Shown here: piece after piece, positions 990 through 16,363 of the stretch
How positions within the stretch are numbered: position 1 is the stretch's first letter
Layout: each line of letters begins with the position of its first letter
Virus record (IMG/VR): IMGVR_UViG_3300028176_000217
Coordinates: 1 to 25,645 of that record
DNA length: 25,645 nt
Direction: 5' to 3' (one strand)
DNA from: a virus
Program-made: the position numbers and the translations under genes
The notes under the pieces: model-generated
The model's input: the letters and a program-made list of their open reading frames with translations, nothing else
Database searches by the model: none
Told to the model about the DNA's origin: nothing

Positions 990-1799
990 ATGAAACAAGA
1001 AAAAGAAAATGTTGTTCTTTTTAGTGGAGGGAAAGATTCAACAGCATTACTTCTAATGGCTTTAGAAAAAGGAATAAAAATAAGTAGAGCAGTTAATGTT
1101 GATACAGGAAAAGAATTTCCTCAAATGTATAAACATATTGAGAAAGTAAAAAGATATATTGCTCCTATAAAAATAATGACATTAAAAATGGATTATGATT
1201 TTTGGTTTGGAGAGCATATTATGCAGAGAGGAGATAGGGAAGGAGAAAAAGGATATGGTTGGCCTCATCCTAGAATGAGATGGTGTACCGGATTAAAGAT
1301 AGAAGCAATGAGATATATGATTTATAATAATAAAAAGAATTACTTTCCACAAAAAAGAAGTAAAGCACCAATATTGAATATGAATAATATTACTGAGTTT
1401 CATGGAATAGCATATGATGAAAAACATAGATTAGTTTCTTTAAATCCCAATATGGAGAAATGGACTCTACAAGTAAGAGCGCCATTAGTAGAATGGAAAA
1501 TAACAGAGAAGGAAGCATTAGAATATTGCTTTTCTAAAGGATTTGATTTTGGTGGCTTATACGATAAAATGAAAAGAGTATCTTGTTTTTGTTGTCCTTT
1601 ACAAAAGATGAACTCATTAAGAATCATATATAATGATTATCCAGAACAATGGGAAGCAATAAAAGAAATGGATAAAAAATCTCATCGGCAGTTTAGATAT
1701 AATTATTCGGTTGATGATTTAGCAAAAAAATTTTTGAACGAAAATAATAGGAAAAAGAATACTTTCTCTTATAAAAGATTATTGGCAAAGAAGAAATAA
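990..1799 (+). CDS. PP-loop ATPase of the PAPS-reductase / DndC-like family
   Basis: A 269-residue protein. FSGGKDST at residues 11-18 is the PP-loop of adenine-nucleotide alpha hydrolases, which activate a substrate with ATP before sulfur or amide transfer. Two Cys clusters follow, RMRWCTGLK and VSCFCCPLQ. The spacing resembles PAPS-reductase-like and DndC-type proteins, where cysteines bind an iron-sulfur cluster or metal. Phages often carry such proteins of uncertain role; possibilities include sulfur modification of nucleic acid or assimilatory chemistry. No other dnd genes are visible, so I do not claim phosphorothioation. ATG 990 lies 4 bases after the previous stop, with an AAAAAGGA site. 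The family call is firm and the substrate unknown. Confidence 0.8.
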   Translation: MKQEKENVVLFSGGKDSTALLLMALEKGIKISRAVNVDTGKEFPQMYKHIEKVKRYIAPIKIMTLKMDYDFWFGEHIMQRGDREGEKGYGWPHPRMRWCTGLKIEAMRYMIYNNKKNYFPQKRSKAPILNMNNITEFHGIAYDEKHRLVSLNPNMEKWTLQVRAPLVEWKITEKEALEYCFSKGFDFGGLYDKMKRVSCFCCPLQKMNSLRIIYNDYPEQWEAIKEMDKKSHRQFRYNYSVDDLAKKFLNENNRKKNTFSYKRLLAKKK

Positions 1800-1808
1800 G
1801 GGGCAATT

Positions 1809-2879
1809 ATGTTACAAAAATTATTTATAAAAAATTTTCAAATTCATAGAGATATTTCATTTCTATTTCATAAAGGAGTAAATGTAATTTCTGGAACTTC
1901 TGGTTCTGGAAAATCGGCATGTATAAGAGCTATTCAATGGGTGTTAAAAAATAGGCCATCTGGTAATAGTATTAAAAATACAGATAGTAAAGATGAAAAG
2001 GTAGAGGTGGAAATATCTCTGATTGATAATCAGATAGTATCAAAAGAAAGAAAAAATGATAAAGCGAAGTATATAATTAATGATGATGCTAAAAATTCAT
2101 TGGATGCCATAGGAAGGGATGTTCCGTCAGAGGTAAGTAGTATTTTAAATATATCTGATTATAATATTCAAGGACAGCATGACCAATATTTTCTTGTTCA
2201 AGATTCTCCTGGAGAAAGAGCGAAGCAATTAAACATCTTTACTGGTATGGAGGTAATAGATACATTATATTTTAATTTAAATAGTCAGATAAATACTACT
2301 CAAAAAGAATTAAAAAAATCAGAAACTAGTAAAAAAGAAATAGAAATAGATTTAGAAAAATATTCTAACTTAGAAGAAATTGAAGCAATAATAAATTCTC
2401 TAAAACTTTCATTTGCCTTGTGCGAAAAATATGAAGGTATAGTTTCCGGTATTAATGCAAGTATGGATGAAATATTTAAAACAGAAGTACAGCTTCAAGA
2501 AACTAAAGATTTTCTTTCTTTAGAAAAAGAAGTAAATAAAATAATAGAATTAATTTCTGAAGTAAAAGAGAATGATGAGCTACAAACAAGAATTATAACA
2601 TCTATATCTCTTATAGAAGAGGATGAAGATAGATTAAGAGAATATGAAAAGATATTAGTTCCTGAAAAAGAGGTTGAGTTGTTTCTTAATTCTGTTGATA
2701 AATATATAGAAATTGTAGAAGAAAAAGAAGCATTAACTACCTCTATTAATTTATTAGAAGAAGCAGAAGTAGAATTGCAAGAGATAGATGATGATTTAAG
2801 GATAATGGAAAAAAGAAATAATTATCTTTTAAAAGAATTGGGCATGTGCCCATTTTGTGGAAATAAAATAAAGGAGTAG
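1809..2879 (+). CDS. N-terminal half of a split Rad50/SbcC-type ATPase, ending at a zinc-hook CxxC
   Basis: A 356-residue protein. Walker A is GTSGSGKS at residues 29-36, in the SMC/Rad50 N-terminal context (LFIKNFQIHRDISF). A Q-loop region follows near 118-130 (NIQGQHDQYF). From about residue 150 onward it is coiled coil rich in Glu, Lys and Leu. It ends at MCPFCGNKIKE, with Cys347 and Cys350 forming a zinc-hook-like CxxC only six residues from the stop. A complete Rad50/SbcC would return through a second coiled coil to signature, Walker B and H-loop motifs; none are present here. They are found in the gene at 5658. The SbcD/Mre11 gene starts 2 bases after this stop, as expected for the nuclease partner. 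The likely role is ATP-dependent DNA-end processing during phage replication or recombination. Confidence 0.85.
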   Translation: MLQKLFIKNFQIHRDISFLFHKGVNVISGTSGSGKSACIRAIQWVLKNRPSGNSIKNTDSKDEKVEVEISLIDNQIVSKERKNDKAKYIINDDAKNSLDAIGRDVPSEVSSILNISDYNIQGQHDQYFLVQDSPGERAKQLNIFTGMEVIDTLYFNLNSQINTTQKELKKSETSKKEIEIDLEKYSNLEEIEAIINSLKLSFALCEKYEGIVSGINASMDEIFKTEVQLQETKDFLSLEKEVNKIIELISEVKENDELQTRIITSISLIEEDEDRLREYEKILVPEKEVELFLNSVDKYIEIVEEKEALTTSINLLEEAEVELQEIDDDLRIMEKRNNYLLKELGMCPFCGNKIKE

Positions 2880-2881
2880 TT

Positions 2882-3811
2882 ATGAAAATTATATGTTCCG
2901 GTGATTGGCATATAAGTGAAAAAACACCAGAGAATAGAACAGATAATTTTGAGGCAGAGGGATTAAGAAAAGCAGAATATATTTTTGAATATGCAGTAGA
3001 AAATAAAATAGAATTAATACTTCAGCCTGGGGATTTAACTGATAGTCCATTCATACCATATTCTCTATTTGTAAAATTAAGCAATCTTTTTAAAACCTAT
3101 AATGATATAAGTTTAATTACTATCTTTGGGCAACATGATTTAAGATATAGAAGAAAAGAAAAAACTCCTTTATATTCTTTAAAAAATATGGCTGATTTAA
3201 AAATTTTTTTAATAGGAGAAAAAGGTATCAGTTATGAATCAAGAAATGAAAGGGTCAATATTTATGGAAGTCATTTTGGGGAAGAAATCCCAGAAATAAT
3301 ATCAAAAGGATTTAATATTCTTCTGATACATAAAATGATTATTCAAGATAAGCTTTGGTCAGCACAAGAAGATTATACTACTGCTAAAAAAATGTTAAGA
3401 ACTACTGATTTTGATTTAATAGTATCGGGAGATAACCACCAAACATTTACTGAAACTTTTCGAGGAAAGACATTAATAAATGCCGGTACTCTTATGAGAA
3501 GTAAAATAAATCAATTAGACCATAAACCTTGTTTTATGATTTATGACACAAATACAAGAGATTTTAAAATAGAGTATATTCCAATTACTTCTTCAAAAAT
3601 AGTATTTAAATATGAGCAAGTAGCAAAAGAAAAAGAAAGGGATAGTCAATTAAAAGAATATGTATCTGCATTAAATCAAGAGGAAGATATGGGGGTAGAT
3701 TTTGTTTTGAATTTGATTAATTATGTTGATGACAATAATATTGATAAGGATATATCAAAAATATTAATAGATAATTTGCCAAGTGCTGCTTTGGAGGGAT
3801 TAAGAGAATGA
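2882..3811 (+). CDS. SbcD/Mre11-type metallophosphoesterase nuclease
   Basis: A 309-residue protein with calcineurin-like metal motifs in order: GDWH (7-10), PGDLTD (49-54, Asp51), GQHD (83-86), IH at 149-150 and GDNH (183-186). The order and spacing match the SbcD/Mre11 nuclease that pairs with Rad50/SbcC to trim DNA ends. One departure is that the third motif is normally GNHD, and the metal-binding Asn is Gln84 here. The C-terminal part is shorter than in many bacterial SbcD proteins. ATG 2882 follows AAGGAGTAGTT and the previous stop by 2 bases. The last codon overlaps the next gene (ATGA). The two ATPase halves flank it at 1809 and 5658, so the three genes probably form one complex. Confidence 0.88.
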   Translation: MKIICSGDWHISEKTPENRTDNFEAEGLRKAEYIFEYAVENKIELILQPGDLTDSPFIPYSLFVKLSNLFKTYNDISLITIFGQHDLRYRRKEKTPLYSLKNMADLKIFLIGEKGISYESRNERVNIYGSHFGEEIPEIISKGFNILLIHKMIIQDKLWSAQEDYTTAKKMLRTTDFDLIVSGDNHQTFTETFRGKTLINAGTLMRSKINQLDHKPCFMIYDTNTRDFKIEYIPITSSKIVFKYEQVAKEKERDSQLKEYVSALNQEEDMGVDFVLNLINYVDDNNIDKDISKILIDNLPSAALEGLRE

Positions 3812-4586: not shown

Positions 4587-5387
4587 ATGATTCTTCAAAG
4601 AAGAAAACAAATAAAAGTAAATACAGTAACAATGGCAGATTGCTTAGAAGCTATGAGGTTTATTACAGACAAAAGTATTGATATGATTTTGTGCGATTTG
4701 CCCTATGGAACTACAGCTTGCAAGTGGGATGTTGTTATTCCCTTTGAACCTCTCTGGGCGCAATACAAACGGCTGATAAAAGAGAACGGGGCGATAGTCC
4801 TGTTTGGTAGTGAGCCGTTTAGTAGTTATTTAAGGTTAAGTAATTTGGTGTGGTTCAAATATGACTGGATATGGGATAAAAAGATTCCGGCAGGGATGAG
4901 TTATGCCAAACATAGGCCAATGGCGCAAACCGAAATAATATCTGTTTTTTGTAGTGGTAAGCATAGATATAATCCGCAGATGCTTAAACGAACAGTCCCT
5001 ATTTATGAAACAACCGGAAGCACCAAAACCGACCACAGAGGAGGGAATGCTCCTGCATATCTTGGCGGAAAGATTTACACTGAGAAAAATCCAACAACAC
5101 TGTTGACTTTTCCGAAGGTGCCTAATTGTCTTGGGACGCTCCACCCCACCCAAAAGCCCGTTACCCTCTTTGAATACCTTATCCGCACCTACACTAATGA
5201 AGGCGATACGGTGCTTGATAACTGTGCGGGTTCAGGAACAACAGCGATAGCTTGTATCAGAACAAACAGGAAATATATTTTAATAGAGAAAGAGCAGAAG
5301 TATTTTGATATTATAAATCAAAGAATTAAGATTGAGTTGAAAAAAAGTAAAAGTACTTTTTTTCATAAATATAAATTTGAGGAGTAA
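4587..5387 (+). CDS. DNA methyltransferase, N6-adenine/N4-cytosine type (beta-class order)
   Basis: A 266-residue enzyme of the N6_N4_Mtase family. The catalytic motif IV is DLPYG (37-41) and the SAM-binding motif I is NCAGSGTT (212-219), followed by RKYILIEKE. Having the catalytic motif before the SAM motif is the beta-class arrangement. It would methylate a short DNA site using SAM, protecting phage DNA or marking it; no matching restriction enzyme gene is recognised nearby. The middle (about 4700-5265) uses CTG, CGG, CCC and GCG codons and is visibly GC-rich. The first 35 and last 40 codons look like the AT-rich neighbours. The start at 4587 has a GAGGAG site. The N-terminus MILQRRKQ resembles a basic motif seen in other proteins here. 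Confidence 0.9.
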   Translation: MILQRRKQIKVNTVTMADCLEAMRFITDKSIDMILCDLPYGTTACKWDVVIPFEPLWAQYKRLIKENGAIVLFGSEPFSSYLRLSNLVWFKYDWIWDKKIPAGMSYAKHRPMAQTEIISVFCSGKHRYNPQMLKRTVPIYETTGSTKTDHRGGNAPAYLGGKIYTEKNPTTLLTFPKVPNCLGTLHPTQKPVTLFEYLIRTYTNEGDTVLDNCAGSGTTAIACIRTNRKYILIEKEQKYFDIINQRIKIELKKSKSTFFHKYKFEE

Positions 5388-14143: not shown

Positions 14144-14155
14144 GGAGTGTTATCT

Positions 14156-16363
14156 ATGAAGGCCAAAGATGATGCTCCTATCATTTTAAAGAGAAGAAAA
14201 CCATATTTCCCACCAAAGCCAAAACTAGTGAAAGAAAAGAAAAGAGGATGGAAAGCTACTGGTCGCCCTAAAGGTAGTAAAAACAAGAAGACTCTTATAA
14301 AAGAACAAAACAAAAGATTCAAAAAGATTCAGAAGAACATTACTGAAAAAGAAATTCTCATCACTCCATTATTTTCTAAAATAAAAGAAGTTGACTCACT
14401 TGTTATTGCATTAAGAGGTGGTGCTCGTAGCAGCAAGTCATATTCTCTTGCTCAATTAATGACAGAAAGGTTTTTTGGTTGTCCAGGGAGAAGAATATTA
14501 ATTTTGAGAAAAACACTTCCTTCTCTCAGAGTGACAACATTAGCATTAATGAAAGAATATATGTCATTAATTGGAATGTTCCCTTTCATAAAAGAAAGTA
14601 AGCAAACATTAGATTGGAAGTATGGAAATACATTATTGCATTTTGGTTCACTTGATGACCCTGAAAAAATAAAGTCCTCAGACTGGAATGACATCTGGAT
14701 GGAAGAAGCAACAGAATTTTCCTACAGAGATTTTATGATTCTCAAAACAAGACTTTCCTCACCTATATGCGGCAATCTTCCCAATCAATTATTTATGTCA
14801 TTTAACCCAGAAGATGAATACTGCTGGATAAAAGAAAAAGTAATTGATGCTGATACAGATTGCACAGAAATTCCTTCTTCATATAAAGACAATCCTTTTC
14901 TATCAGATGAATATAGGAAGATACTTGAAGATTTAGAAAAGCAAGATATCAATTACTGGAGAATATATGGATTAGGACAATGGGGAAAGTTAACCAATTT
15001 AGTTTATTCTAATTGGAAGATAGTAGAAGACTTTCCCATTCAAAGAAGCAATGTCATATATGGTCTTGACTTTGGATTCAACAATCCTTCTGCATTACTC
15101 AAGTTGTATTTGGATGGTAGTGAATGCGGTGTAGAAGAAAAGATATATGAAACAGGATTAACAACAACAGATTTGATAAGTAAGATGGAAGAAGCAATTC
15201 CATTAGAACATAGACAAAGTCATCCTATATATGCTGATAATGCAGAACCAGATAGAATACTCGAAATCAATAATGCAGGCTTCTGGTGCTTACCATGTCA
15301 TAAGGTATCAGTGACAGAAGGCATAGATGATGTGAAGCAATTTCAGATATACTCGCTATCAACAAATACACAATACAATAAAGAAGTCAAGACATACAGT
15401 TGGAGACAAGATAAGAATGACCGCATACTTGATGAGCCGGTGAAGTATAATGACCATTACTGTCTTGTTGGTGATACAAAGATATTAATGGCAAATAATA
15501 CTGAGAAGAAAATAAAAGATATTCTTCCGGAAGAATTAATTCAGACGGCAACTGGAATCAATAAGGTATTGCTATCTAAATTAACAAAAAGAAAAGCAAC
15601 GATATATCAAATCAATTTATCTAATGGGTCTTTTTTAAAAGGAACAGGGGATCATCCAATATATACTCTTGATGGGTTAGTAAAAATAAAAGATTTAAAT
15701 AGTCAAAAGATAATTGTTTGGGAGGAGTTATGCAGAAGCAAATTATATTTAGAAAAAGAAAATACAATTGGGATGGAAGATATTATTCTCCAGTTGGTGG
15801 ATGTTTTAATGGAAGAAAAAGATTACATTGCGCTAAATGGATATTCTGTAATGGAGAAATCCCAAAAGGATATGAGATTCATCATAAAGATAAAGATGGA
15901 AGAAATAACCGAATGGATAATTTGGAACTTATCGAGGTTGGCAAGCATAGATCAAAACATCTTAAAGAAAAATGGACATCAAAAGAATTTAGAGAAAGAG
16001 GTAAAAAACATCTTCTGGCAATTAATTCTCTTGCAAAAGAATGGCATGCATCAAAAGAAGGAGAGGAATGGCATAGACAACATGCAAAAGATATCTGGAA
16101 GAATAGAATGTCTTTCACAAAAAATTGTGAAGTTTGTGGAAAAGAATATAAAACATACTTCCCTACAAAATCAAAATACTGCCATGCTAATTGCAAGCAA
16201 AAAGCTCTTGGAAAAAGAAGACGTATACAACTTAACCGTAGAAAATGATCATAATTATTATGCAAATAAAATATTAGTAAAGAATTGTGATGCCATGAGA
16301 TATGCTCTATCAACTTATGTTCGTCAAAATTTAATGGGAAGACCAAGAATAAGGGAATTATAG
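14156..16363 (+). CDS. terL: Terminase large subunit (TerL) interrupted in frame by an intein
   Basis: The 735-residue precursor contains Walker A GGARSSKS (88-95), Walker B DIWMEEATE (179-187), then the RNase-H-like nuclease with GLDFGF (Asp305) and YADNAEPD (Asp361). The third nuclease acid motif, DH-Y-CDAMRYAL, is split: Tyr435 is followed by an intein of 275 residues, and the remaining CDAMRYALSTYV follows it. Splicing would restore a protein of about 460 residues, usual for TerL, which cuts and pumps phage DNA into the prohead. The N-terminus has an added basic tail with APIILKRRKPYF and GRPKGSKNKK. I chose ATG 14156 over GTG 14147, which lies inside the AAGGAG site. If the intein failed to splice, the nuclease active site would be broken. 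Confidence 0.93.
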   Translation: MKAKDDAPIILKRRKPYFPPKPKLVKEKKRGWKATGRPKGSKNKKTLIKEQNKRFKKIQKNITEKEILITPLFSKIKEVDSLVIALRGGARSSKSYSLAQLMTERFFGCPGRRILILRKTLPSLRVTTLALMKEYMSLIGMFPFIKESKQTLDWKYGNTLLHFGSLDDPEKIKSSDWNDIWMEEATEFSYRDFMILKTRLSSPICGNLPNQLFMSFNPEDEYCWIKEKVIDADTDCTEIPSSYKDNPFLSDEYRKILEDLEKQDINYWRIYGLGQWGKLTNLVYSNWKIVEDFPIQRSNVIYGLDFGFNNPSALLKLYLDGSECGVEEKIYETGLTTTDLISKMEEAIPLEHRQSHPIYADNAEPDRILEINNAGFWCLPCHKVSVTEGIDDVKQFQIYSLSTNTQYNKEVKTYSWRQDKNDRILDEPVKYNDHYCLVGDTKILMANNTEKKIKDILPEELIQTATGINKVLLSKLTKRKATIYQINLSNGSFLKGTGDHPIYTLDGLVKIKDLNSQKIIVWEELCRSKLYLEKENTIGMEDIILQLVDVLMEEKDYIALNGYSVMEKSQKDMRFIIKIKMEEITEWIIWNLSRLASIDQNILKKNGHQKNLEKEVKNIFWQLILLQKNGMHQKKERNGIDNMQKISGRIECLSQKIVKFVEKNIKHTSLQNQNTAMLIASKKLLEKEDVYNLTVENDHNYYANKILVKNCDAMRYALSTYVRQNLMGRPRIREL
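15721..15727 (+). promoter_or_regulatory. Internal ribosome binding site for the nested HNH gene
   Basis: GGAGGAG ends 2 bases before ATG 15730, inside the terL/intein coding sequence. It looks like other sites in this window (GAGGAGTAATT-ATG, AAGGAGTAGTT-ATG), though the spacing is shorter. It fixes the nested start at 15730 and not at the in-frame TTG 15718, and implies independent translation of the endonuclease. Confidence 0.7.
15730..16248 (+). CDS. HNH homing endonuclease nested in the intein in an alternative frame (172 aa)
   Basis: The domain has the HNH layout of the HNH_3 type: RLHCAKWIFCNGEIPKG, then IHHKDKDGRNNRMDNLELI with His51/His52 and Asn64, followed by a basic helical region. 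A four-Cys zinc finger sits near the end (Cys133, 136, 151, 155). It would cut an intein-less terL copy and promote spread of the element. The frame differs from that of terL, so it is a free-standing protein made from its own GGAGGAG site. Its last nine or so codons (RRIQLNRRK) overlap intein block F (VYNLTVEN) in the other frame. The stop is TGA 16246-16248. Both overlapping frames are open throughout, which is rare in such AT-rich DNA. Confidence 0.85.
   Translation: MQKQIIFRKRKYNWDGRYYSPVGGCFNGRKRLHCAKWIFCNGEIPKGYEIHHKDKDGRNNRMDNLELIEVGKHRSKHLKEKWTSKEFRERGKKHLLAINSLAKEWHASKEGEEWHRQHAKDIWKNRMSFTKNCEVCGKEYKTYFPTKSKYCHANCKQKALGKRRRIQLNRRK

Follow-up and report, generated by a model that had tools for sequence, protein, structure and literature searches.

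The 25.6-kb virus record IMGVR_UViG_3300028176_000217, analysed over its whole length and called the window below, carries a gene for the large terminase (terL) whose product appears to be interrupted in its nuclease motif by a class 1 intein; the homing endonuclease of this intein would be a separate HNH gene, which overlaps the spacer of the intein out of frame. We put the probability of this reading at about 0.85. Intein endonucleases are normally regarded as in-frame domains; in the nested layout described here one stretch of DNA serves both the gene for mobility and the splicing element, each in its own frame, and the HNH gene escapes gene callers. The layout is genuine and widespread as a means of making an intein mobile: of 166 distinct HNH relatives, at least 113, mostly from phages, have a continuous open reading frame (ORF) for terminase and intein that runs across the HNH gene.

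An intein in the terminase nuclease motif

The ORF at 14147-16363 (plus strand) reads through 738 amino acids without a stop, holding host protein and intein in one frame, and it encodes a large terminase, recognised by PF04466 and TIGR01547, into which an intein is set that matches PF14890, TIGR01445, and TIGR01443 (Table 1). The intein spans 15461-16285. Its junctions, NDHY/CLVGDT... and ...ILVKN/CDAMRYAL (the slash marks the junction), were set by alignment over more than 100 loci, so that the N-extein ends in ...VKYNDHY directly before the intein; at the same site intein-free relatives read NH-xx-DAxRY, matching the start of the C-extein. The splicing motifs all lie in the terL frame (PF14890, E 3e-13): C1, T62, H65, and N275 are invariant among 46 aligned inteins, the +1 residue of the window is Cys, and blocks A, B, F, and G with a +1 Cys or Ser are present in more than 100 loci. 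The penultimate residue of the window's intein is K, not H.

In the AlphaFold2 model of the intein, residues 1-90 and approximately 243-275 have a predicted local distance difference test score (pLDDT) of mostly 87-98, with most of both halves at about 95-98 and a value of 83 for the block of ten residues containing the second Hint boundary; the spacer between them scores 42-79. The gp41-1 intein is both the top Foldseek match of this model (TM 0.86 by target, 1.9 A) and the best hit in the profile search. The C1, the TxxH of block B, the C-terminal Asn, the +1 Cys, the Hint fold, and the continuous frame together point to a class 1, cis-splicing intein, as predicted from motifs and fold, and the overlapped stretch forms a spacer between the two halves of one Hint fold. 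The terL reading would thus yield a chain of TerL-N, Hint-N, spacer, Hint-C, and TerL-C, in which the Hint halves would pair, the spacer of about 150 residues would be looped out, and splicing would release a working TerL, as the motifs, the fold, and the essential host gene suggest.

The HNH gene begins at intein residue 90-91, where the ordered N-terminal half ends, and the first 20 or so Hint-C codons share their DNA with the 3' end of the HNH gene. The HNH frame lies one base back from terL, such that HNH codon positions 2, 3, and 1 form the terL codons. Both ORFs are as originally predicted: the terL frame is free of stops and encloses a complete HNH ORF with its own GGGAGGAG and ATG. The HNH protein (AlphaFold2 pLDDT 95.1) has a C-terminal zinc ribbon (C133, C136, C151, and C155), whose cysteines, like the catalytic residues, are invariant in 24-35 relatives. 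Its sole profile match in the PDB is I-HmuI (E 7e-5), and Foldseek with the whole model gives weak matches only. The catalytic residues and the zinc ribbon are those of an HNH_3 homing endonuclease; patchy occurrence and mobility at a fixed site, which also mark such enzymes, are seen in the relatives only.

Table 1. Features of the terL locus in the window.
Feature	Position	Strand	Evidence
TerL N-extein (PBSX-type/Terminase_3 large terminase)	14147..15460	+	PF04466 E 5e-32, TIGR01547 E 1e-32
Predicted intein N-terminal splicing half; block A CLVGDTKILM with C1, block B TGDHPIYT	15461..15730	+	TIGR01445
Shine-Dalgarno-like GGGAGGAG ahead of the HNH ATG	15720..15727	+	sequence
HNH_3 homing-type endonuclease gene, 172 amino acids, ATG start, out of frame with terL	15730..16248	+	PF13392 E 3.7e-11
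terL-frame reading of the HNH DNA: stop-free intein spacer, low-confidence model, no amino-acid constraint detected	15731..16186	+	
Predicted intein C-terminal splicing half; block F/G EDVYNLTVENDHNYYANKILVKN	16187..16285	+	TIGR01443 E 7e-7; pLDDT 83-98 by block
TerL C-extein and stop; starts with +1 Cys (CDAMRYAL...), holds the conserved nuclease-motif Asp	16286..16363	+	junction alignment

The open frame is not due to chance

When the HNH protein of the window is held fixed and synonymous codons are redrawn at the local base composition, the terL frame should acquire 7.1 stops, and none of 20,000 redraws reaches zero; permuting the gene's own codons lowers the expectation to 2.4 (P = 0.02). 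The third, unused frame contains 21 stops, as expected. The initial estimate of roughly a dozen stops was therefore too high, yet the conclusion drawn from it, that the open frame is not accidental, holds and becomes decisive over the 113 nested relatives.

These come from 166 distinct HNH loci (numbered with the prefix L) collected by HNH scans and from phage records. In 109 of them a single ORF, in frame +1 relative to HNH, contains the N- and C-terminal intein blocks; four more (L121, L146, L148, and L215), which are open across the HNH gene with a weak or absent C-block profile match, were counted as nested, the C block being recognisable by eye in three of them and not in L215. Across the nested loci the carrier frame has 0 stops against 5.3 expected per locus by redraw (the third frame has 21.7), whereas the 53 non-nested loci average 6.0 stops against an expectation of 5.6-5.7. 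Two loci, L124 and L191, have the HNH gene nested in the opposite frame; there it is this frame that has 0 stops (9.5 and 11.8 expected), while the usual carrier frame has 8 and 10. The HNH proteins of the relatives are mostly 30-47% identical to that of the window, far past the point at which a frame stays open by chance.

The open frame has left its mark on the HNH proteins themselves. Met followed by K, N, T, I, or M, which forces a TGA in the carrier frame, accounts for 0 of 142 cases in nested HNH proteins against 34 of 121 in non-nested ones (p 2e-13), and nested genes are depleted in ATA, TTA/CTA, TTG/CTG, and GTA/GTG. The HNH is thus an independent gene that overlaps the intein out of frame, as originally proposed. 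The overlap sought in related phages was found, and the 113 other loci that share the layout exclude an assembly or sequencing indel that would hide an in-frame HNH.

Several observations on these loci stand apart. The public annotations of Rhodobacteraceae phage LS06-2018-MD07 (L036), Acinetobacter phage Highwayman (L037), and Tetrasphaera phage TJE1 (L038) give one long terL and overlook the HNH gene. In the TerL ORF of L124 (L124:1-3210), Pfam also recognises a LAGLIDADG domain ahead of the terminase domain, which suggests a second, canonical intein beside the one with the nested HNH. In two Planctomycetota metagenome-assembled genomes (L218 and L219), a distant HNH_3 lies in frame with an intein N block in an ORF of about 1,500 amino acids, possibly a canonical in-frame fusion outside terL. 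An antisense ORF in the window (15882-16346, minus strand, 154 amino acids) also spans the overlap and is probably a by-product of codon composition.

Insertion site and mobility

The inteins cluster within a few residues of each other in the TerL nuclease motif (NH/xxDAxRY and neighbours), and they also occur at what looks like the counterpart motif in Terminase_6 proteins. Among the 80 closest relatives of the nested TerL of L062, three carry the intein, and in 77 the site is unbroken, as in NHNH/LIDALRY (54 by automatic call, and 23 with DPLRY by eye). The N-terminal splicing half is more similar than the TerL N-extein in 18 of 18 pairs, the HNH part in 17 of 18, L062/L081 being the exception; in L081/L083 the intein DNA is 98.2% identical, the host gene 74.9%. 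This patchy presence and excess similarity fit homing driven by the overlapping HNH gene: the free nuclease would cut intein-free terL at the NH-xx-DAxRY codons when phages co-infect a cell, and the intein together with its HNH gene would be copied in as the break is repaired.

The HNH could instead be an accessory of DNA packaging, like gp74 of HK97, that is merely stored in the intein. HNH genes often adjoin terL, relatives of the window's HNH are also found as free genes after terL, and work cited in PMC10448857 reports cooperation between HNH protein and terminase in HK97. The nuclease travels with the intein, however, and is absent from terL in 77 of the 80 relatives above; its family is HNH_3, with I-HmuI the only structure matched by profile, and similarity between loci is higher for the intein than for the host gene. 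A packaging role of this kind is unlikely.

One-sided selection in the overlap

An overlap-aware substitution count on 20 pairs separates the two frames. Divergent pairs are unreliable for stop-creating differences, which are scored as single changes on one background, and stops were therefore read in close pairs only. For HNH, dNN/dSN is 0.40 (0.31-0.48), and 0.15 in close pairs, indicating purifying selection; for the intein-spacer frame, dNN/dNS is 1.02 (confidence interval 0.88-1.18), similar to the 1.12 of non-nested controls. Identities pooled over 18 pairs agree with this: Hint-N is 82%, Hint-C 86%, and HNH 83% identical, the spacer 69%. Spacer identity and a dNN/dNS of about 1 imply that the terL frame is constrained to openness only. 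The comparison shows one-sided selection, in which the HNH protein is kept, presumably for homing, and the spacer frame is only kept free of stops, because terL must be read through, with no given spacer sequence required.

The claim that both frames are constrained accordingly holds for HNH and, in the intein frame, for the exclusion of stops alone, not for its amino acids. True dual coding, with the spacer a functional domain and both proteins under sequence selection, would explain why the spacer is stop-free in 113 of 113 nested loci and why motifs such as QKNGT recur in it. These motifs, however, are shadows that conserved HNH codons, EWH for example, cast in the other frame; the spacer is modelled with low confidence and is less conserved in pairs than the Hint halves and HNH, and its dNN/dNS equals that of loci without nesting; purifying selection is seen on HNH and not on the spacer, which makes dual coding very unlikely.

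The overlap should shield the nuclease from loss, since most changes that break its frame also break the essential terminase.

Translation of the HNH gene

The HNH protein would be made from the terL mRNA by internal initiation at the GGGAGGAG-ATG of 15730. The Shine-Dalgarno sequence of the window is strong, unlike that of most nested relatives. A fusion of TerL-IntN and HNH through -1 ribosomal frameshifting would also suit the HNH frame, which in the window and in most of its relatives is -1 relative to terL, and the weak Shine-Dalgarno sequences of many of these relatives. Usable slippery heptamers, however, are found in 6 of 113 nested loci and not in the window, HNH lies in the other frame in L124 and L191, and in L025 a stop codon directly abuts the HNH ATG. 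The rarity of the heptamers and this stop make frameshifting highly improbable, and internal initiation is therefore inferred. Promoter-like sites are not in excess in a way that would indicate an internal promoter.

Group I introns often carry HNH_3 enzymes, but removal of the insert as RNA, or an assembly artefact or indel that hides an in-frame HNH, can practically be discarded: Rfam gives no intron match, the frames are identical in 113 loci, and intein blocks A, B, F, and G with the +1 Cys or Ser recur in over 100.

Some observations weigh against the nested, homing intein proposed here. At least 5 Shine-Dalgarno bases stand before only 16% of the HNH genes in the nested set, where chance alone would give 7%; among free or split genes the share is 43-47%. 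The stop counts are not independent across loci, which share ancestry. A near-identical, intein-free sister of the window's phage was not found, the window's own TerL having only a distant empty-site relative, that of L004, which is about 30% identical. The weak Shine-Dalgarno sequences of nested genes perhaps reflect low dosage or hosts that do not depend on them.

Split and free-standing relatives

At about 20 loci with the same motif the gene is split into TerL-N with IntN, an independent HNH gene, and a short, separately initiated ORF for IntC and TerL-C; the first of these stops 30-85 bases past the IntN block. Examples are L018, L047 (Lactobacillus phage CL2), L113, L116, L117, L154, L184, and L211, while the sequence of L213 ends before its C-terminal half. 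The window has one continuous ORF and is not itself of this kind. Two further loci combine the parts differently: L172 has a complete TerL intein with the HNH just downstream, and L067, within a nested clade, an intein-free TerL with the HNH downstream. They are possibly states of collaborative homing or loss.

On a quick, unrooted tree of HNH, in which most deep forks are weak, these states need at least 22 changes (the minimum possible being 3), several of them forced by well-supported branches. The original prediction saw in the window an intermediate between fused and fractured inteins. The link it drew is borne out, as the same HNH family occurs in TerL inteins split at the same site, and a transition of this type is plausible, although an unrooted tree shows no direction; the nested state is not a rare intermediate, however, but the commonest one, and long-lived. 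A single stop in the unconstrained spacer and a start before Hint-C could turn a nested locus into a fractured, trans-splicing terL, a route that would be feasible because the nuclease is already translated on its own. That out-of-frame nesting is a general, repeatedly adopted route to intein mobility and a path to split inteins is a tentative proposal, with the odds somewhat against it. With one HNH family nested, split, and free-standing at one site, the origin of split inteins becomes directly testable.

Relation to known systems

Fractured genes, in which split inteins flank an intervening endonuclease, were reportedly described by Dassa et al. in 2009, and a 2025 preprint by Gosselin et al., said to treat actinobacteriophage inteins of 'non-canonical architecture', may by its title be related. 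The kind of element described here is already known, if barely described: one passage of a 2015 study states that terL of near-identical brucellaphages contains an HNH gene that the intein encodes in a different frame (PMC4422536), which by that paper's description is the same architecture as in the window. Relative to the literature examined, the breadth of the layout, the control by frame choice, the one-sided selection, and the series of nested, split, and free states at one site are new.

The ShiLan domain and the Pacc40 insertion of phage DNA methylases (PMC11855218, 2025) are likewise mobile inserts, stop-free in the host frame, that hide an out-of-frame HNH gene; they are without intein splicing domains, whereas the window has all splicing blocks and the Hint fold, in terL. 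Nor is the window's element a canonical intein with an in-frame endonuclease, as HNH is out of frame here and in every nested relative. In genes fractured by split inteins, such as AceL NrdHF (PMC7891396), the endonuclease occupies the same position, where Hint-N and Hint-C part, and the HNH family of the window is found in such split TerL loci; these genes are broken into several ORFs, while the intein of the window is not. The split inteins gp41-1 and NrdJ-1 are the closest solved structures to its Hint part, but belong to other host genes and were solved as constructs without a nested gene. I-HmuI (1U3E) shares the HNH core, but is intron-encoded, and its fold matches the whole model weakly. 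The inteins of mycobacteriophage TerL, also in the phage large terminase, all lie in the ATPase domain (PMC5050341), that of the window in the nuclease motif with an out-of-frame HNH.

Elsewhere in the window, at 990-3811 and 4587-5387, the same phage carries a PAPS reductase-like gene, SbcC/SbcD-like genes, and an N6_N4 DNA methylase.
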